64,000 nt of DNA from Sphingomonas sp. (GTDB taxonomy: Bacteria > Pseudomonadota > Alphaproteobacteria > Sphingomonadales > Sphingomonadaceae), in assembly GCF_019746665.1 (NCBI RefSeq), contig NZ_JAIERS010000003.1, positions 114,605-178,604 on the forward strand, read 5' to 3'. Positions 56,791 to 63,859 of this stretch are shown one piece after another; position 1 is the first letter of the stretch; each line of letters starts with the position of its first letter. The notes beneath the pieces were generated by a model. That model was not told the DNA's origin and searched no databases. It saw only the letters and a list, made by a program, of their open reading frames with translations. Position numbers and translations under genes: made by a program.

Positions 56791-58389
56791 TTACGCCCGG
56801 TCGTCGGTGATGCTGGCCCAGTCGAGCCCGAAGCGCGCGAGATATTTTCGTAACCTATCCGCATCGTTGGCGGAACTGCGCCGCGCCCGCGACGCAGTGA
56901 ACAAAGCTCTACCAGCTTCAGACAGTGAGCGGCTCCGCCGACACACGCGGATTGTTTCGACCAGCTGCACGCGATCGAACGGATCGATGGCCTCGAGTGC
57001 CTCGCGCCCCAGCAGCCGAGCGAGGATATCATCTCCCTGGTCGCATTGGCCGCTCCACAAGCGTTGCAGGCGGGCGATCTCGGCGTTCACGCATTCAAGG
57101 TCGATCCGCCCCTTCGGACTAAGCGTCGCCATGCGCGTAACGCTCGCGGCGAGGTCACGAAAGTTGCCCGGCCATGCAGCGCCAGGGCCGGTTGCAAAGG
57201 CAACGTAACGCTGGCGCGCTTCTTTGTTGAAGCTGGCCCTATCACCCTCGCGCTCTGCGAAGCGATCGAGTTCGTAGTCGAGGTTGGGTTCAATATCCTC
57301 GCGGCGATCGGCCAGGCCGGGCAGATGAAACGTCCACAGGTTGAGGCGGGCGTAAAGGTCGTCTCGAAACGCACCGCTTGCGACGGCTTCGCCGAGATCG
57401 CGATTGGTGCCCGCTATCAGCTGGAAGTCGCTCGCCGCTTCCTTGTCGGCACCGACGGGCAGGAAGCGTTTGTCCTCGATCGCGCGCAGGATCATCGCCT
57501 GCTCGTCGAGGCCGAGTTCGCCGATCTCGTCCAGGAACAGCATGCCCTTGTCGGCCGCCCGCAGGAGGCCGGGGCGATCGGCGACCGCGCCGGTAAAGGC
57601 GCCCTTGCGGTGACCGAACAGCGCGGACATCGCGCCATCACCCTTCAGCGTCGCGCAGTTCACCTCGACAAACGAGCCTGCGACCTGATGCTTGAGCTTC
57701 TTGAGCTCGTAGATACGCCGCGCCAGCAAGCTCTTGCCCGCCCCGGTCGGCCCCATCAGCAGGATCGGTGCCTTGGAGCGGAGCGCCACCTTTTCGATCT
57801 CATCGATCATCCGGTTGAACGCGACATTGCGCGTGTCGATGCCGGATTTCAGGAATGACGTGCTCTCGGCGCTTGCAACGGCGAAGCGCGTGGCGATGCT
57901 GTCGTAGCGCGACAGGTCGAGATCGATCGTGTTCCAGGTCCCGGCGGGGTTGGGTGTGCCACGCTCGGGCTGGGTCTGGAGGAGGCGGCCAGGCAGGTAA
58001 CGCGCTTCGGTCAGCAGGAAGAGGCAGATCTGCGCGACATGGGTGCCGGTGGTGATATGGATGAGGTAATCCTCGGTATCGGGATCGAAGGGCTCGGCGC
58101 GCGCGAAGTCGAGCAGCTTGCCATAGACCTCCTCGAAATCCCACGGATCGCGGAAATCGAGCAGGCGCAGGTCGACATGCGTCTCCGGCGATACAGAGCC
58201 GATGTCCTCCGCGACATATTCGGCGAGCCGGCGATGCGGTGTCCCATGCAGGAGAATCAACCGATCGACGCGGAGGTCCTCATGCATCGCGAGCCCGACC
58301 GTAGGCCGCCACTTGCTCCAGCGCGAGGGGCCGAACTTGCTCGCGTCGAGCGTCGAGCCGAGGAAGCCGATGACGGTCAGGGGTTTCAT
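56791..58389 (-). CDS. rtcR: RtcR, sigma54 activator of the RNA-repair operon
   Basis: 532 residues. The N-terminal 180 residues are the CARF-like sensor typical of RtcR (GFLGSTLDASKFGPSRWSKW, then RPTVGLAMHEDLRVDRLILL). The AAA+ domain has Walker A GPTGAGKS, the sigma54-contact loop KGAFTGAVAD, Walker B FLDEIGELGLDEQ and the arginine-finger region. The C-terminus carries an HTH. In E. coli RtcR is held inactive by its sensor until damaged tRNA ends are present. It is divergent from rsr-rtcBA with a candidate enhancer between. Start 58389 matches the conserved MKPLTVIGFLG. Confidence 0.95.
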   Translation of the reverse strand: MKPLTVIGFLGSTLDASKFGPSRWSKWRPTVGLAMHEDLRVDRLILLHGTPHRRLAEYVAEDIGSVSPETHVDLRLLDFRDPWDFEEVYGKLLDFARAEPFDPDTEDYLIHITTGTHVAQICLFLLTEARYLPGRLLQTQPERGTPNPAGTWNTIDLDLSRYDSIATRFAVASAESTSFLKSGIDTRNVAFNRMIDEIEKVALRSKAPILLMGPTGAGKSLLARRIYELKKLKHQVAGSFVEVNCATLKGDGAMSALFGHRKGAFTGAVADRPGLLRAADKGMLFLDEIGELGLDEQAMILRAIEDKRFLPVGADKEAASDFQLIAGTNRDLGEAVASGAFRDDLYARLNLWTFHLPGLADRREDIEPNLDYELDRFAEREGDRASFNKEARQRYVAFATGPGAAWPGNFRDLAASVTRMATLSPKGRIDLECVNAEIARLQRLWSGQCDQGDDILARLLGREALEAIDPFDRVQLVETIRVCRRSRSLSEAGRALFTASRARRSSANDADRLRKYLARFGLDWASITDDRA

Positions 58390-58473
58390 GACTATCCCAT
58401 AGGATAAATCTTGATCCACATCGATAGAAAAAGAGCGAATGATATGGTGCCGCCCCGTATCACCTCGTTTCAA

Positions 58474-58498
58474 TAAAACATTATAATCTAATGTTTTA
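58474..58498. promoter_or_regulatory. Candidate RtcR enhancer (UAS)
   Basis: TAAAACATT-N7-AATGTTTTA is a perfect 9-bp inverted repeat, AT-rich in a GC-rich genome, centred 43 bp upstream of the sigma54 -24 element and 97 bp from the rtcR start. Position fits an enhancer-binding protein site. RtcR recognition is inferred. Confidence 0.65.
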
Positions 58499-58527
58499 CT
58501 CGATTTTCAGCAGCACTCCGATGCATT

Positions 58528-58543
58528 TGGCACGCCCCCTGCT
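58528..58543 (+). promoter_or_regulatory. Sigma54 promoter of the RNA-repair operon
   Basis: TGGCACGCCCCCTGCT has the invariant GG (58529-58530) and GC (58541-58542) separated by 10 bases, and TGGCAC matches the -24 box exactly. It drives the tRNA-like RNA, rsr, the Y RNAs, rtcB and rtcA. Confidence 0.85.
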
Positions 58544-58594
58544 CTACTCTGTGCGTCGGTCGAGGCGGATTGCTCTTCCGATGGAGCGGAAACC

Positions 58595-58622
58595 GGGGCG
58601 GCCGGAATGGGCCGGCCGCCCC
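58595..58622 (+). other. Leader hairpin of the RNA-repair transcript
   Basis: GGGGCGGCCGG (58595-58605) pairs perfectly with CCGGCCGCCCC (58612-58622) over AATGGG. It has no U-tract and sits between the promoter and the tRNA-like RNA. It may protect the transcript 5' end or direct processing of the tRNA-like RNA, whose first base is 11 bases further on. Confidence 0.45.
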
Positions 58623-58632
58623 ACGAAATTCA

Positions 58633-58711
58633 CAGGGCGTAGCTCAGTCTGCGTGAGAGCACCGGCCTTGGGAGCCGGGGGTCGCAGGTTCAAATCCTGC
58701 CGCCCTGACCA
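58633..58711 (+). tRNA. tRNA-Pro(TGG)-like RNA in the RNA-repair leader
   Basis: 79 nt cloverleaf in normal order: acceptor CAGGGCG/CGCCCTG (C1-G72 as in bacterial tRNA-Pro), anticodon stem CCGGC/GCCGG with loop CTTGGGA (anticodon TGG), T-arm GCAGG-TTCAAAT-CCTGC and an encoded CCA. The D-loop AGTCTGCGTGA lacks the G18-G19 pair needed for the tertiary fold, and the D-stem is GCTC/GAGC rather than the usual Pro form. It lies 17 bases before rsr with its Shine-Dalgarno between. It may be a tRNA, a tRNA-derived sensor or a decoy substrate for RtcB; a standard tRNA-Pro gene would not be expected inside a sigma54 operon. Confidence 0.65.
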
Positions 58712-58728
58712 ATTGAGGAGGTTGGACG

Positions 58729-60276
58729 ATGGCCAACAAGGGACTTTTTGCATCGGCCGCGACGAAGTTGCTGCCGCGCGCGAATGCGGTGAACAACGAA
58801 GGCGCGCCGGCCTATGCCTATGGCCCCGAGGCCAAGCTCGCCCAGCTTGCCGCGACCGGAACGCTTGCCGACAACTTCTACGGCGCGGCGGAAACGCAGC
58901 TTGCCGATGGGCTGGCCGCGGCCCAGGCGGTCGACCCGTATTTCGTGGCGCAGGCAGCGATCTATGCGCGGCGCTCGGGGGCGATGAAGGACATGCCGGC
59001 ATTGCTGGCGGCGTATCTTACGGTCGCCGATCCCGATTTGGCGGTGCCGGTATTCAGCCGGGTGATCGACAACGGGCGAATGCTGCGCAATTTCGTGCAG
59101 ATCATGCGCTCCGGGCAGGTCGGACGGACCTCGCTCGGCTCGCGGCCGAAGCGGCTGGTCCAGCATTGGCTGGAGCAGGCGTCGATGCCGCAGCTGATGG
59201 CGGCGGCGACGGGCAAGGATCCGAGCCTCGCGGATATCGTCCGCATGGTTCACCCCAAGCCCGCCGATGCCACGCGCAAGGCATTCTATGGCTGGCTGAT
59301 CGGGCGTCCGTATGACGTCGCCGCGCTGCCCGCCGAGATCGCCGCGTTCGAGGCGTGGAAAGCCGATCGGTCGTTGCCGCTGCCGCAGGTCCCGTTCGAG
59401 TGGCTGACCGCTTTTCCGCTGACGGCGGCGGATTGGGCCGTGCTGTCGACGCGGATCGGGTGGCAGGCGCTGCGGATGAACCTGAACACCTTGGCGCGCA
59501 GCGGCGCGTTCGACGTGCCAGGCGTGTCCGAGGTCGTAGCCGCGCGGCTCGCCGACGCCGAGACGATCGCGAAGGTCCGGCCAATGCCCTATCAATTGAT
59601 GGTGGCACTTGGCCAGGCTGGAGACGGGGTGCCGCTGAATGTCCAGGCTGCGCTCGAGCAGGCGCTGGAGCTGTCGCTTCGGCGCGTGCCGAAGGTGGCG
59701 GGCCGGGTCGTCGTCTGCCCCGACGTGTCGGGGTCGATGGAATCGCCGGCGACGGGTTATCGCAAGGGCGCCTCGTCGAAGGTCAGGTGCATCGATGTCG
59801 CGGCCCTCGTCGCGGCGGCGATGCTACGCACCAACCGCGACGCGCGGGTGCTGCCGTTCGAGCAGGCGGTCGTGAAGCTGAAGCTCAAGGCCAATGCCCG
59901 GGTCGCCGTGAATGCGGCGAAGCTGGCGGCGGTCGGGGGTGGCGGGACCAATGTCTCGGCACCGCTGGCGCTGCTTAACCGGGAGCGGGCACAGGTCGAT
60001 CTGGTCGTCATCGTCTCGGACAACGAGTCCTGGGTCGATGCCAGCCGGCGCGGCGCGACGGCGACGATGGCGGAGTGGAACAGGCTGAAGGACCGGAATC
60101 CGGGTGCGAAGCTCGTCTGCATCGACATCCAGCCGTACGGGACGACGCAGGCGAAGGACCAGGCGGACATATTGAATGTCGGAGGTTTCTCCGACGCCGT
60201 GTTCGATACGATCGCGCGCTTCGCCGCGGGCAAGACGCGCGATTGGGTCGAAGTTATCAAGGAGATCGAAGTATAA
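58729..60276 (+). CDS. rsr: Rsr, Ro60-like TROVE-domain RNA-binding protein
   Basis: 515 residues. It has the alpha-helical TROVE ring (residues about 30-320, with YFVAQAAIYARRSGAMKDMP, VDAKPADATRKAF-like helices and PYQLMVALGQAG) and a C-terminal vWA domain whose MIDAS motif DVSGS has Asp332, Ser334 and Ser336. Rsr binds Y RNAs and misfolded RNA and can couple them to exonucleases such as PNPase. It follows the tRNA-like RNA (GAGGAGG upstream) and is followed after five bases by the first of five Y RNA-like genes. Confidence 0.93.
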   Translation: MANKGLFASAATKLLPRANAVNNEGAPAYAYGPEAKLAQLAATGTLADNFYGAAETQLADGLAAAQAVDPYFVAQAAIYARRSGAMKDMPALLAAYLTVADPDLAVPVFSRVIDNGRMLRNFVQIMRSGQVGRTSLGSRPKRLVQHWLEQASMPQLMAAATGKDPSLADIVRMVHPKPADATRKAFYGWLIGRPYDVAALPAEIAAFEAWKADRSLPLPQVPFEWLTAFPLTAADWAVLSTRIGWQALRMNLNTLARSGAFDVPGVSEVVAARLADAETIAKVRPMPYQLMVALGQAGDGVPLNVQAALEQALELSLRRVPKVAGRVVVCPDVSGSMESPATGYRKGASSKVRCIDVAALVAAAMLRTNRDARVLPFEQAVVKLKLKANARVAVNAAKLAAVGGGGTNVSAPLALLNRERAQVDLVVIVSDNESWVDASRRGATATMAEWNRLKDRNPGAKLVCIDIQPYGTTQAKDQADILNVGGFSDAVFDTIARFAAGKTRDWVEVIKEIEV

Positions 60277-60281
60277 GAATT

Positions 60282-60441
60282 GGGTCGTGGCGAATGCTGG
60301 TGGGACTACATCGTCACCAGAGAAGGCCCGACGAGTAAAGCGCTCCAGCGCCCGCGAGGGATTGGAGAGATGCGGGTTCGAATCCCGCCGCCGACACGTA
60401 GCTTAAGGGCCGCGTCTTGCCGCTCCTCGTCGCCACGACCC
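60282..60441 (+). ncRNA. Y RNA-like gene 1
   Basis: About 160 nt. The terminal stem is a perfect 12-bp pairing: GGGTCGTGGCGA (60282-60293) with TCGCCACGACCC (60430-60441), carrying the GRCGA core. A 6-nt (ATGCTG) / 9-nt internal loop is followed by stem 2 GTGGGAC (60300-60306) / GTCTTGC (60414-60420, with G.U pairs). The T-arm is GCGGG-TTCGAAT-CCCGC (60372-60388). The acceptor is shortened and the D-arm poorly formed; a 65-nt insertion (class II variable-arm-like) precedes the T-arm. It is the longest and least tRNA-like copy. Confidence 0.8.
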
Positions 60442-60450
60442 ATCCCGCAT

Positions 60451-60573
60451 CACGGCGAATGCCAGTGGAACTACATGAACTTCAGTGTCGGCGGTTCGAA
60501 TCCGCCTCCGGCTTCGGCCGGGTAGCTCAGCTGGATAGAGCATGAAGCCGTTTCACGAACATTCGTCGCCGTG
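60451..60573 (+). ncRNA. Y RNA-like gene 2 (UUCG-capped tRNA module)
   Basis: About 123 nt. Terminal stem CACGGCGA (60451-60458) / TCGCCGTG (60566-60573). Internal loop ATGCCA / 9 nt. Stem 2 GTGGAAC (60465-60471) / GTTTCAC (60550-60556). T-arm GGCGG-TTCGAAT-CCGCC (60490-60506). Acceptor TCCGGC-TTCG-GCCGGG (60507-60522): the 3' strand is joined to the 5' strand by a UUCG tetraloop. Then TA and an intact D-arm GCTC...GAGC with GG in the loop (60525-60541). Order is 3' half before 5' half, a tRNA opened at the anticodon. Confidence 0.88.
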
Positions 60574-60584
60574 GACCTGACAAT

Positions 60585-60715
60585 CGTGACGAATGCCCGA
60601 CGGACTACATCGACTGCTAATCGCCAGGTCGCGGGTTCGAGTCCCGCCGGGTCTACCACGGGCCCGTAGCTCAGTTGGTAGAGCGGGGACGTCTGTCAAA
60701 CACCTGGTCGTCACG
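60585..60715 (+). ncRNA. Y RNA-like gene 3 (covariant stem; ACCAC loop)
   Basis: About 131 nt. Terminal stem CGTGACGA (60585-60592) / TCGTCACG (60708-60715): here the core is GACGA instead of GGCGA, and the 3' strand changes to match (TCGTC instead of TCGCC). Stem 2 GACGGAC (60599-60605) / GTCTGTC (60691-60697). T-arm GCGGG-TTCGAGT-CCCGC (60631-60647). Acceptor CGGGTCT-ACCAC-GGGCCCG (60648-60666, two G.U pairs); the linker begins ACCA, as in a mature 3' end. D-arm GCTCAGTTGGTAGAGC at 60669-60684. An anticodon-arm remnant (CTGCTAA loop) precedes the T-arm. Confidence 0.9.
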
Positions 60716-60728
60716 GACCGAACAGCAA

Positions 60729-60866
60729 TTCTGGCGAATGCCGGAGGAACTACAGCACGCCCGAGACGCCGGTTCGATCCCGGCCGGATCAGCGCGGTGA
60801 AAGCCGACTGATCCGTCGTCTAGCGGAAGGACACGGGCCACGTTTCTCCACTTTTCGTCGCCGGAA
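60729..60866 (+). ncRNA. Y RNA-like gene 4 (tRNA-Glu-like D-arm)
   Basis: About 138 nt. Terminal stem TTCTGGCGA (60729-60737) / TCGCCGGAA (60858-60866, one G.U). Stem 2 GAGGAAC (60744-60750) / GTTTCTC (60842-60848). T-arm GCCGG-TTCGATC-CCGGC (60768-60784). Acceptor CGGATCA (60785-60791) / TGATCCG (60809-60815), perfect 7 bp, with a 17-nt loop that adds a CGG/CCG extension. D-arm TCGTCTAGCGGAAGGACAC resembles bacterial tRNA-Glu. Confidence 0.88.
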
Positions 60867-60876
60867 GACGAACACA

Positions 60877-61001
60877 GCTGGCGAATGCCGGCGGGACTAC
60901 AGGTCAGAGCGCTTGCCGCAAGGCAAGAGGTCGGCGGTCCAACTCCGCCTCCGGGAAACCGGATAGCTCAGGGAAATGTCTCGCCACGCCTCGTCGCCGG
61001 C
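60877..61001 (+). ncRNA. Y RNA-like gene 5 (GAAA-capped, long arm)
   Basis: About 125 nt. Terminal stem GCTGGCGA (60877-60884) / TCGCCGGC (60994-61001, one G.U). Stem 2 GCGGGAC (60891-60897) / GTCTCGC (60978-60984). An extra hairpin CTTGCC-GCAA-GGCAAG fills the variable-arm position (60912-60927), like a class II tRNA. T-arm GGCGG-TCCAACT-CCGCC (60933-60949, T-loop diverged). Acceptor TCCGG-GAAA-CCGGA (60950-60963) is closed by a GNRA tetraloop. D-arm reduced. rtcB follows after 26 bases containing its ribosome site. Confidence 0.86.
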
Positions 61002-61027
61002 ACCATGATGAAACAAGGAGGTCGCAG

Positions 61028-62254
61028 ATGACCGAAGCACTGTACGACTACCAGCACGTCGAAGGCGGCGTGCCGATCAAGATGTGGACGCGCGGCGTGC
61101 CGGTCGAGGCCGAGGCTCGGGCGCAGCTGTCGCGCGCCGCACAGATGCCGTTCGTGTTCAAGCATGTGGCGGCGATGCCCGACGTCCATGTCGGCATCGG
61201 CGCGACCGTGGGCTCGGTGATCCCGACCAAGGGCGCGGTGATCCCGGCGGCGGTGGGCGTCGACATCGGCTGCGGCATGATGGCGGCGCGGACCTCGCTG
61301 ATGGCGAGCGATCTGCCCGACAATCTCGAGGGCATTCGCTCGGCGATCGAACAGGCGGTGCCGCACGGCCGGTCGGTCGGTCGCGGCAAGCGCGATCATG
61401 GCTCTTGGGGCGATCCGCCCCCGGCGATCGTCGAGGCCTGGGCCACGCTTGCCGTTCGTTTCGAACGAATCTGCGAGAAGCATCCGCGGCTCAAGAACAC
61501 GAACAACCTCGTGCATCTGGGGACGCTGGGCACCGGCAACCACTTCATCGAACTGTGCCTGGATACGGAACAGCGCGTATGGGTGATGCTGCATTCGGGC
61601 AGCCGCGGCGTGGGCAATGCCATCGGCACGTTCTTCATCGAACTGGCCAAGCAGGACATGCGCAAGTGGCACATCAACCTGCCCGATCAGGACCTCGCCT
61701 ATTTCCCCGAAGGGACCGACCATTTCGACGATTATGTCGAGGCGGTGGGCTGGGCGCAGGATTATGCCGCGCTCAACCGGCGAATGATGATGACCAACGT
61801 CATCCGGGCGCTGCGGACCCAGATCGCTAAGCCGTTCGATGCGGAGCTGGAGGCGGTGAACTGCCACCACAACTACGTGACGCGCGAAAACCACTTCGGC
61901 GAGAATGTGCTCGTGACCCGCAAGGGCGCGGTGCGGGCGGCGAAGGGCGTGCTGGGGATCATCCCGGGGTCGATGGGCGCCAAGTCGTTCATCGTGCGCG
62001 GGCTGGGCAATGCGGAATCGTTCGACAGTTGCTCGCACGGTGCGGGGCGCGTGATGAGCCGGACCGCCGCCAAGAAGCTGGTGTCGCTCGACGAGCACAT
62101 CGCCGACACGGCGGGCGTCGAATGCCGCAAGGACGAAGGCGTGATCGATGAGACGCCGAAGGCCTATAAGCCGATCGAGGCCGTGATGGCCGCGCAGGCG
62201 GACCTGGTCGAGATCGTCCACACGTTGAAGCAGGTGGTGTGCGTCAAGGGGTGA
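61028..62254 (+). CDS. rtcB: RtcB RNA 3'-phosphate/2',3'-cyclic phosphate ligase
   Basis: 408 residues. It ligates RNA with 2',3'-cyclic-P or 3'-P ends to 5'-OH ends using GTP and Mn2+. The metal and nucleotide site is visible: VDIGCGM (Cys82), TLGTGNHFIEL, MLHSGSRGVGNAIG, NCHHNYVTREN, and the guanylylated histidine His337 in CSHGAGRVMSRTAAKK, which is the same number as E. coli RtcB. AAGGAG is eight bases before the ATG. Part of the sigma54 operon. Confidence 0.96.
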   Translation: MTEALYDYQHVEGGVPIKMWTRGVPVEAEARAQLSRAAQMPFVFKHVAAMPDVHVGIGATVGSVIPTKGAVIPAAVGVDIGCGMMAARTSLMASDLPDNLEGIRSAIEQAVPHGRSVGRGKRDHGSWGDPPPAIVEAWATLAVRFERICEKHPRLKNTNNLVHLGTLGTGNHFIELCLDTEQRVWVMLHSGSRGVGNAIGTFFIELAKQDMRKWHINLPDQDLAYFPEGTDHFDDYVEAVGWAQDYAALNRRMMMTNVIRALRTQIAKPFDAELEAVNCHHNYVTRENHFGENVLVTRKGAVRAAKGVLGIIPGSMGAKSFIVRGLGNAESFDSCSHGAGRVMSRTAAKKLVSLDEHIADTAGVECRKDEGVIDETPKAYKPIEAVMAAQADLVEIVHTLKQVVCVKG

Positions 62255-62354: not shown

Positions 62355-62834
62355 ATGGCGAACGGTGTCAACGAATGGTCTCAAGAAGGCCAACTTTATG
62401 TCTGGCGGTACGCCAACCCCAAGCACGACTGGCGCGGTTGGCACTTCACCGCCGATCCGACCGGGTGCAGGTCCGTCCGAAACCTCCTGGACCGGATGCA
62501 CGGAGGCGAAGCCTGTCATCGCACGCTGAAACTCGGGACGGTTACTGACGCCATCCTGAGCGTGCCCAATTACGCAGCGAAGGCGATGGGCAGGTTTGAA
62601 AAGCTCCGGATCGAATACGTGCCGGGTTTCGACAATCTCTACGTCTCACCAAAGGAAACAGCGCTGATCATGACTGTCGGCGATCGACGGCTTCGAAAAC
62701 TGACCGCCGCATTTGCTGAGGTCGAGGTCGGGCTTGGTGACTTCGGCATCGGTACGTCCGACAAGAAAAATGCCGACACGTGGATGTTCTGGTGGATGCC
62801 GAGCATCAAATATCATGACGGGAAGAGACAATGA
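62355..62834 (+). CDS. Unrecognised protein between rtcB and rtcA
   Basis: 159 residues, no family recognised. Start 62355 follows CGGAGG; the stop overlaps rtcA by four bases (ATGA), so it is translated with rtcA. No signal peptide or membrane helix. Visible features: a Trp-rich N-terminus (QLYVWRYANPKHDWRGWHFT), CRSVRNLLDRMHGGEACHRT with two cysteines, a positively charged middle and a C-terminal WMFWWMPSIKYHDGKRQ. Being embedded in the RNA-repair operon, it may bind RNA or modify RNA ends. Codon use is slightly less GC-biased than that of rtcB. Confidence 0.7.
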   Translation: MANGVNEWSQEGQLYVWRYANPKHDWRGWHFTADPTGCRSVRNLLDRMHGGEACHRTLKLGTVTDAILSVPNYAAKAMGRFEKLRIEYVPGFDNLYVSPKETALIMTVGDRRLRKLTAAFAEVEVGLGDFGIGTSDKKNADTWMFWWMPSIKYHDGKRQ

Positions 62835-63859
62835 TCATCATCGACGGATCGGCAGGCGAAGGTGGCGGGCAGGTCGTGCGCAATGCATGCGCGCTGTCGC
62901 TCGTCACCGGTCAGCCTTTCCGCATCACGAACGTCCGTGGCAAGCGTTCGAAGCCCGGGCTGATGCGGCAGCACGTCACCGCGGTCGAGGCGGCGCTGGC
63001 GATCGGCGGCGCACATGCCGAAGGCGTCGCCGTAGGCTCCTCGGAAATCGCCTTCACGCCTGGACGTGTCACGCCGGGCGAGTACCGCTTCGCGGTCGGC
63101 ACCGCCGGCAGCACCAGCCTCGTCTTCCAGACGCTGCTGATGCCGCTGCTGCTGGCCGATGCGCCGTCGCGGCTCGTTCTCGAAGGCGGCACGCATAACA
63201 TGATGGCGCCGCCGTTCGAGTTCATCTCGAAGGCGTTCGTGCCGATCGTGCGCCGGATGGGCGGCGACATCGAGCTACGACTGGCGCGGCACGGATTCTA
63301 TCCGCGCGGCGGCGGCCGGATCGAGGTCGACATCCGGCCGGGAAAGCTTTCGCCGATCGACTGCCTTGAACGGGGCATGTTGAAGTCGGTTTCGGGTCTG
63401 GCGCTGTTCGCCGCCCTGCCGTTCGACATCGCCGAGCGCGAGCTGAAGACGGCACGCAAGTTCTTGCCGAACTGGCCGGAGAATGTGTTTGCGGTTCGCC
63501 AACTCCCCGACGAGCAGGGTCCCGGCAATACACTGTTGCTCGAAGCCGAGTTCGATCACGTCACCGAGATCGTAACCGGCTTCGGCAAGCTCGGCGTGTC
63601 GGCGGAGTCGCTCGCCAAGACAGCAGCGCACCGGATGGCGGGATTCTTGGCGACAGACGCGTTCGCCGGGCCATACCTGGCGGACCAGCTGTTGTTGCCG
63701 TTCGCGTTGGCCGGCGGTGGAAGCTTCACGACCGTGCAGCCGAGCGATCATGCGCGCACCGCCGCGGATGTCATCGAGCGGTTTACCGGCCAACGTTGGA
63801 AATTTGAGCAACAATCCAGCGGCAGCCGCCTGGTTCGGCGAATGCCGAGGGCCGGGTGA
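62831..63859 (+). CDS. rtcA: RtcA RNA 3'-terminal phosphate cyclase
   Basis: 342 residues. It converts RNA 3'-P to 2',3'-cyclic-P through a covalent AMP intermediate. Signature elements: DGSAGEGGGQVVRNACALSL, the RGKRSKPGLMRQH loop, EGGTHNMMAPPFEF, RHGFYPRGGGRIEV and the adenylylated histidine His307 in QPSDHARTAADVIE. Length is standard. Last gene of the operon; no terminator is obvious in the following 70 bases. Confidence 0.95.
   Translation: MIIIDGSAGEGGGQVVRNACALSLVTGQPFRITNVRGKRSKPGLMRQHVTAVEAALAIGGAHAEGVAVGSSEIAFTPGRVTPGEYRFAVGTAGSTSLVFQTLLMPLLLADAPSRLVLEGGTHNMMAPPFEFISKAFVPIVRRMGGDIELRLARHGFYPRGGGRIEVDIRPGKLSPIDCLERGMLKSVSGLALFAALPFDIAERELKTARKFLPNWPENVFAVRQLPDEQGPGNTLLLEAEFDHVTEIVTGFGKLGVSAESLAKTAAHRMAGFLATDAFAGPYLADQLLLPFALAGGGSFTTVQPSDHARTAADVIERFTGQRWKFEQQSSGSRLVRRMPRAG

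Follow-up and report, generated by a model that had tools for sequence, protein, structure and literature searches.

Five Y RNA-like units with differing tRNA-shaped ends, one of them a putative D-loop permutation, in an RNA-repair operon of Sphingomonas

The closest described counterparts of the locus reported here are the bacterial Y RNA YrlA and the RNA-repair operons in which Rsr and Y RNAs occur. YrlA is a substrate of DusA and TruB and a partner of PNPase (PMC8394870), and in its solved structure it lines up with tRNA in circularly permuted order (PMC11472068). The signal that activates RtcR is a 5' tRNA half with a cyclic phosphate at its end (PMC7790460). The study that identified this signal leaves open the role of Rsr and Y RNAs in RNA-repair operons and that of Salmonella YrlA, which it reports as not cut by the SOS tRNA nuclease (PMC7790460). 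Several putative Y RNAs have been suggested near an Rsr relative in a Listeria phage (PMC12282133), and a Vibrio jumbo phage has a Ro60 relative (PMC7765460). In the literature searched, which covers part of the bacterial Y RNA papers, we recognized neither multi-unit arrays nor a class permuted at the D-loop.

The DNA analyzed here (64 kb in all, hereafter the window) encodes an RNA-repair operon with a divergent rtcR, a sigma54 site, rsr, five RNA units, rtcB, and rtcA. The rtcR gene, encoding the sigma54 activator of the operon, lies on the minus strand (56791..58389, with the start codon picked by eye) and scores 815.9 bits with the NCBIfam model RNA_repair_RtcR, against a cut-off of 650; Pfam RtcR matches too. 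All other features described below are on the plus strand. A sigma54-type -24/-12 promoter of the rsr operon (58528..58542) was located by pattern match and is the single exact match to TGGCACG-N5-TGC within the 64 kb. A looser sigma54 pattern, likewise following the general rules for such sites, occurs within the 330 nt ahead of rsr at every one of the 81 loci (the best 80 of 155 plus the window). The rsr gene (58729..60276; Pfam vWA_Ro60, E 1e-18) encodes a Ro60-type RNA-binding protein whose closest solved relative is D. radiodurans Rsr (2nvo, E 5e-15), rtcB (61028..62254; Pfam RtcB, E 2e-127) encodes the RNA ligase, and rtcA (62831..63859; Pfam RTC, E 2e-73; NCBIfam above cut-off) the RNA 3'-phosphate cyclase. 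With rsr, rtcB, rtcA, a divergent rtcR, and a sigma54 promoter, the locus has the make-up of an rsr-yrl-rtcBA operon. Between rtcB and rtcA sits an ORF (62355-62834) that gave no match in Pfam and NCBIfam searches and has relatives of 40-65% identity at 9 of 80 loci (best 80 of 155); at six other loci viewed, the rtcB-rtcA gap is occupied by a gene that looks, by eye, like a nucleotidyltransferase. A scan of 58400-61100 for sigma70 promoter and terminator patterns gave no match, a null that says little because shuffled sequences yield just 0.3 and 1.9.

The original prediction placed five head-to-tail Y RNA-like genes with tRNA-mimic modules in the rsr-rtcB gap, separated by spacers of 9-13 nt. 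We searched both strands of the whole window with R1, a covariance model built from 26 units of 26 other loci and containing no window sequence (its 26-row alignment, A3, was hand-picked from 56 other-locus candidates, and its E-values are rough). R1 found exactly five units, with E-values of 1e-33 to 2e-8, and its sole other match was a 17-nt stub (E 0.6) inside a tRNA-Pro-like gene. Unit 1 (60286..60437; R1 35.0 bits) is Y RNA-like and is assigned to what we call type A, a predicted tRNA with its permutation point in the D-loop and its anticodon arm closed. Units 2 to 4 are assigned to type B: unit 2 (60451..60573; Rfam YrlA 80.2 bits, R1 115.7) is a YrlA with an Arg-like D-arm, unit 3 (60585..60715; 66.3 and 115.9) is YrlA-like and encodes ACCA inside its acceptor loop, and unit 4 (60730..60865; 51.6 and 77.3) is YrlA-like with a Glu-like D-arm. 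Unit 5 (60877..61001; 30.1 and 49.1) is Y RNA-like, with a T-arm, a 5-bp acceptor hairpin, and a reduced D-arm. Unit 2 lies above the cut-off of the Rfam YrlA model (RF02553, 69 bits) and units 3, 4, and 5 match below it, at full model length; unit 1 gave no match to that model up to E 1. The number, orientation, place, and general nature of the units were thus as predicted, and the spacers, by the model borders, measure 13, 11, 14, and 11 nt. When four arrays were searched with both models, R1 returned 15 units and Rfam 10, the Rfam search having stricter filters. A match to RF00005 at 60660-60792, which combines the unit 3 D-arm with the unit 4 T-arm, was rejected by reading as an artefact.

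The units have in common a basal stem (GRCGAAUGC...GUCGYC) and a second stem, both with compensatory changes. All five are encoded beside rsr and have the basal stem, as expected of a bacterial Y RNA in the broad sense, of which binding by Rsr in the cell, predicted here, is a further mark; units 2-5 also carry the CGAAUGC box in the basal stem and ACUAC behind the second stem. Folded as single sequences, unit 4 gave the expected plan, unit 5 the reduced plan, and unit 2 most of the plan; the plan was not recovered for unit 3 (z -0.5) or unit 1, and the evidence for these two units is therefore comparative only.

Our relatives are 80 named rsr loci (the best 80 of 155 candidates), mostly from Sphingomonadales with some Rhodospirillales. 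R1 searches of these loci and the window gave 170 and 163 matches, or 333, one of which was omitted (weak, E 0.0037, over a tRNA-Arg gene of L046); the remaining 332 all fall inside the rsr-rtcB interval (best 80 of 155 plus the window). A covariance-model search of related operons, the check proposed with the original prediction, found units there as well, and the claim survived it. A strict parser likewise detected one or more units in each of the 80 related intergenic regions (best 80 of 155), compared with 3 units in 400 shuffled regions and 0 in 80 rsr coding stretches. The relatives hold 327 units, 2-6 per locus, with five the commonest count: three loci have two units, 20 have three, 25 have four, 31 have five, and one has six (best 80 of 155). 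The same prediction held that five units in one operon are unusual, a view contradicted by the 31 of 80 relatives with five (best 80 of 155) and by 12 further genomes whose best loci were re-searched, 10 of which have 4-7 units next to an Rsr relative; three of the 10 (G517, G534, and G423) lie outside the class. These counts rule out the array size as an oddity of this genome. At five loci (L148, L151, L180, L182, and L184) the array adjoins an Rsr relative, and the RtcB encoded after it is a distant relative (about 25-28% identical) in place of the close one.

We also drew an even sample of the class: 5 of its 289 genomes have an Rsr at E <= 1e-20, and in each of the five, full-length R1 units lie immediately 3' of that gene (2-5 at the filters used). 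R1 at E <= 0.001 matched 97 of the 289, including 92 of the 284 without such an Rsr, indicating that from the RNA side the link to this Rsr is not strict; some of these 92 matches cover part of the model, and others are full-length and mostly weak. Of two genomes that we viewed, G342 has a single unit (82.6 bits) near an Rsr relative of 27% identity and G104 has three units, with no Rsr found within the 2.6 kb examined.

Type B units run in the order T-arm, acceptor 3' strand, loop, acceptor 5' strand, and D-arm, with the Y stem at the anticodon end. Across the 26 rows, 95.0% of cells are paired and 20 of 35 pairs show double changes (0 of 500 shuffles), compared with 39-47% paired in slid controls, and G15 occurs with C48 in 26 of 26 rows. 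In many type B units a short loop caps the acceptor, and units with CCA in the acceptor loop come from 21 sources, namely the window (unit 3) and 20 relatives (best 80 of 155). Judged from the alignment, type B is the known YrlA plan, permuted at the anticodon, with unit 5 as a reduced version. The order T-arm, acceptor 3'-5', D-arm, originally ascribed to all five units, is seen in units 2, 3, and 4, holds in part for unit 5 (a 5-bp acceptor hairpin and no D-stem), and fails for unit 1. The further suggestion that each unit matches a different tRNA class finds partial support, in the D-arms of units 2-4, the units that our comparison covered: the D-arm of unit 2 is identical to that of the host tRNA-Arg in all 19 letters, that of unit 3 equals the Val, Lys, and Phe D-arms of the host in 18 of 18 letters, and that of unit 4 is nearest to Glu and then Gln. 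The two tRNA halves taken together point to no clear single tRNA.

Unit 1 falls in a class of its own. We aligned 65 type A rows (alignment A6; 64 relatives and the window, after three other-type units were dropped from 68), in which 95.2% of cells are paired and 22 of 35 pairs show double changes (0 of 500 shuffles), with slid controls at 34-52%. The D-stem is split: its 3' strand (AAGC, GAGC, or AUGC) lies upstream and its 5' strand (GCUU, GCUC, or GCAU) downstream, with the anticodon arm and T-arm between them. All of its cells (100%) are paired across GCUU/AAGC, GCUC/GAGC, and GCAU/AUGC, and an exact partner lies upstream in 64 of 65 units and within 23 nt downstream in 0 of 65. By our assignment of tRNA numbers, U8, A14, A15, G19, A21, U55, and A58 are present in 65 of 65, and the junction falls past G19 and ahead of U20-A21. 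A15 accompanies U48 in 61 of 65; positions 15 and 48, which we take to form the Levitt pair, thus differ as a pair between types A and B. For the helix GGNCC/GGNCC, pairing reaches just 85-89% of cells, with one subgroup relying on different columns; in the anticodon arm, the two pairs next to the loop are broken in 15 and 25 of the 65 rows. The acceptor may be formed as a pseudoknot between the strand past the T-arm and a stretch past ACUACA: over the 65 rows each sequence matches its own complement at a mean of 4.11, compared with 3.61 (sd 0.09; 0 of 500 shuffles), and in unit 1 itself the match is weak (longest own complement 3 nt). Taken together, the alignment supports a predicted tRNA that is opened by permutation at the D-loop, where the Y stem enters, and that keeps its anticodon arm closed, and the unit 1 alignment and its covariation rule out a single plan for all five units.

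R2, a covariance model of type A that includes unit 1, scores that unit at 159 bits and the other units of the window at 34-54. Type A occurs at no fewer than 70 of 80 loci (best 80 of 155; 64 aligned plus six more at 91 bits or above), and nine other loci score at most 68 bits, with L079 left out. In a phylum sample of 299 genomes, R2 exceeded 150 bits only in the genome of the window and one other, the next match reaching 60.

We think it probable that the window encodes five distinct Y RNA-like adaptors for Rsr, predicted to carry different tRNA-shaped ends and to act when tRNAs are broken. Two further elements lie ahead of rsr. A leader RNA hairpin of 11 bp with an AAUNNG-type hexaloop (58595..58622; GGGGCGGCCGG-AAUGGG-CCGGCCGCCCC), recognized by pattern and covariation, is present in 76 of 81 loci (best 80 of 155 plus the window), although the search pattern itself demands the loop. 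Its stem is paired in 99.2% of cells across 45 distinct sequences, with double changes in 9 of 11 pairs (0 of 500 shuffles). Counted from the promoter's first base, the loop begins after 72-86 nt in 72 of 76 loci and after 47-55 nt in four. Between the promoter and rsr, ARAGORN also calls an extra tRNA-Pro(UGG)-like RNA with an encoded CCA end (58633..58711). G18 and G19 are standard features of the tRNA D-loop, and of the 42 distinct host tRNAs this RNA alone has no GG in nt 14-25. Among 16 relatives that resemble it in the D-arm, eight lack GG in the loop, seven have GG at the loop start (by reading, not at 18-19), and L092 retains it. Altered anticodon arms or remnants were seen among the relatives of this RNA (L037, L050, L092, L098, and L101), three loci have a Trp-like RNA, and in L036 a Pro-like one follows the array.

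As an alternative to distinct adaptors, the tRNA-shaped ends could be decoys that soak up toxins or enzymes attacking tRNA, the tRNA-Pro-like RNA being bait with a real anticodon loop. Competitive inhibition of an anticodon nuclease has been suggested for Salmonella YrlA (PMC7790460), and the extra tRNA-Pro(UGG)-like RNA, lacking the D-loop GG, stands first in the operon. We nevertheless find this unlikely: contiguous pairing gave a 7-nt anticodon loop in 0 of 65 type A units (14 of the 65 show loops of 4 nt, most of them GNRA), type B lacks an anticodon arm, and the tRNA-like gene is not general, ARAGORN calling a tRNA immediately ahead of rsr in 19 of 80 relatives (best 80 of 155).

A second possibility, that the units are plain, equivalent YrlA copies supplying Rsr by dosage, their sequences having drifted with no division of labor, would fit the basal stem common to all of them and the R1 score of every one. 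It seems unlikely given how the units relate across genomes. Of 332 units, 331 have their closest relative in a different genome (best 80 of 155 plus the window; some loci are close relatives, which raises this figure), and the mean best score is 0.84 elsewhere and 0.44 within the array. The five units of the window fall into five clusters at one cut-off (cluster number ranges from 13 to 36 across cut-offs), and unit 1 is predicted to be permuted differently. By these comparisons the array units are old, distinct subtypes. One cluster, with 15 units of 76-87 nt from 15 relatives (best 80 of 155), lacks the T-arm, indicating that the tRNA shape is not required of every member. In three mini Y RNA-like units of 77-81 nt (L026:6356-6436, L044:6487-6564, and L085:6200-6276), the basal and second stems are present and a plain hairpin replaces the tRNA part.

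It is very improbable that the units are precursors of genuine permuted tRNAs, to be joined by RtcB or another ligase. An RNA ligase gene does adjoin the array, and the predicted breakpoints match those of Cyanidioschyzon merolae permuted tRNA genes (PMC3978253). In the models, however, no anticodon can result, as the type A arms are capped and the Y stem replaces the anticodon loop in type B, and many type B acceptors are closed by their short loop. Decayed tRNA genes, tRNA debris, or a tandem-tRNA artefact have the least chance of all of being right, for although 8 of the 9 weak YrlA or R1 matches outside rsr arrays that we examined with Rfam cover two tRNA genes in tandem, compensatory changes occur in the basal and second stems, high-scoring full-length matches occur in the rsr-rtcB interval of all 80 loci (best 80 of 155), and the covariation of the Y stems together with the split D-stem refutes tRNA decay, which the original prediction had also rejected. 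Because tandem tRNA genes give similar matches, the order T-arm, acceptor, D-arm is by itself insufficient proof; for the ninth weak match, in L020, Rfam showed no tandem tRNA genes.

Returning to a set of distinct adaptors, we infer that the five RNAs serve Rsr and are co-induced with RtcBA by broken tRNAs. By analogy with described systems, broken tRNAs would likely switch the operon on, RtcR sensing 5' tRNA halves and sigma54 transcription following. The five RNAs would be cut from the rsr-rtcBA transcript and would bind Rsr through the common basal stem, while their tRNA-shaped ends could recruit or compete for tRNA-binding enzymes, for which PNPase, TruB, and DusA are precedents; RtcA and RtcB would meanwhile mend the tRNA breaks. 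In our models, what remains of the tRNA in both types is the elbow, presumably presented with a capped acceptor in type B and a capped anticodon arm in type A. Both modeled types lack a 7-nt anticodon loop and a free CCA end, so no charging and no codon reading would be expected.

The type B units with CCA in the loop and the matches to tandem tRNA genes suggest an origin at a tandem-tRNA junction, and the permuted modules look as if derived from the junction of two such genes. As a tentative generalization, which we hold as possible, Rsr particles of Alphaproteobacteria may use two circular permutations of tRNA, one opened at the anticodon (YrlA) and the other, a class without a match in Rfam, at the D-loop, both derived from tandem-tRNA junctions, with one operon carrying a non-interchangeable set of orthologous adaptors that presents different tRNA faces to repair, decay, and modification enzymes upon tRNA breakage. 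One class would show the anticodon-arm side of tRNA and the known class the acceptor side, suggesting two sites of opening in the tRNA fold and a single handle that carries both forms. Given distinct adaptors conserved as a set, it becomes testable which tRNA face each enzyme binds.

The arrangement bears comparison with four described systems. Among the four types of permuted tRNA gene in C. merolae (PMC3978253), type I, opened at the D-loop (20/21), resembles type A and type II, opened at the anticodon loop (37/38), resembles type B, whereas types III and IV have no counterpart in the array. The C. merolae genes mature into real tRNAs by splicing; the ends of the array units, in contrast, carry the Y stem, with no anticodon loop or free CCA in our models. 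In the D. radiodurans complex of Rsr, Y RNA, and PNPase (RYPER), Rsr holds the lower stem of the Y RNA and the other end acts as effector (PMC4726728); there a single Y RNA tethers PNPase, whereas here there are five units whose binding to Rsr is predicted. The Salmonella rsr-yrlBA-rtcBA operon with rtcR has the same gene content and order, a sigma54 activator, and Y RNAs between rsr and rtcB, but by its name it has two Y RNAs rather than five, and the locus described here has in addition a leader hairpin and a tRNA-Pro-like RNA before rsr. The likeness to YrlA (RF02553; crystal structure 6CU1 for the tRNA-like part) lies in the basal Ro-type stem, the ACUAC box, the position beside rsr, and the permuted order of T-arm, acceptor hairpin, and D-arm, which is common to units 2-4 and reduced in unit 5. 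The array differs from YrlA in combining five subtypes, among which unit 3 keeps ACCA in its acceptor loop and unit 5 is without a D-stem, and unit 1, which has no Rfam YrlA match and appears to follow another permutation, is the new part of the finding.
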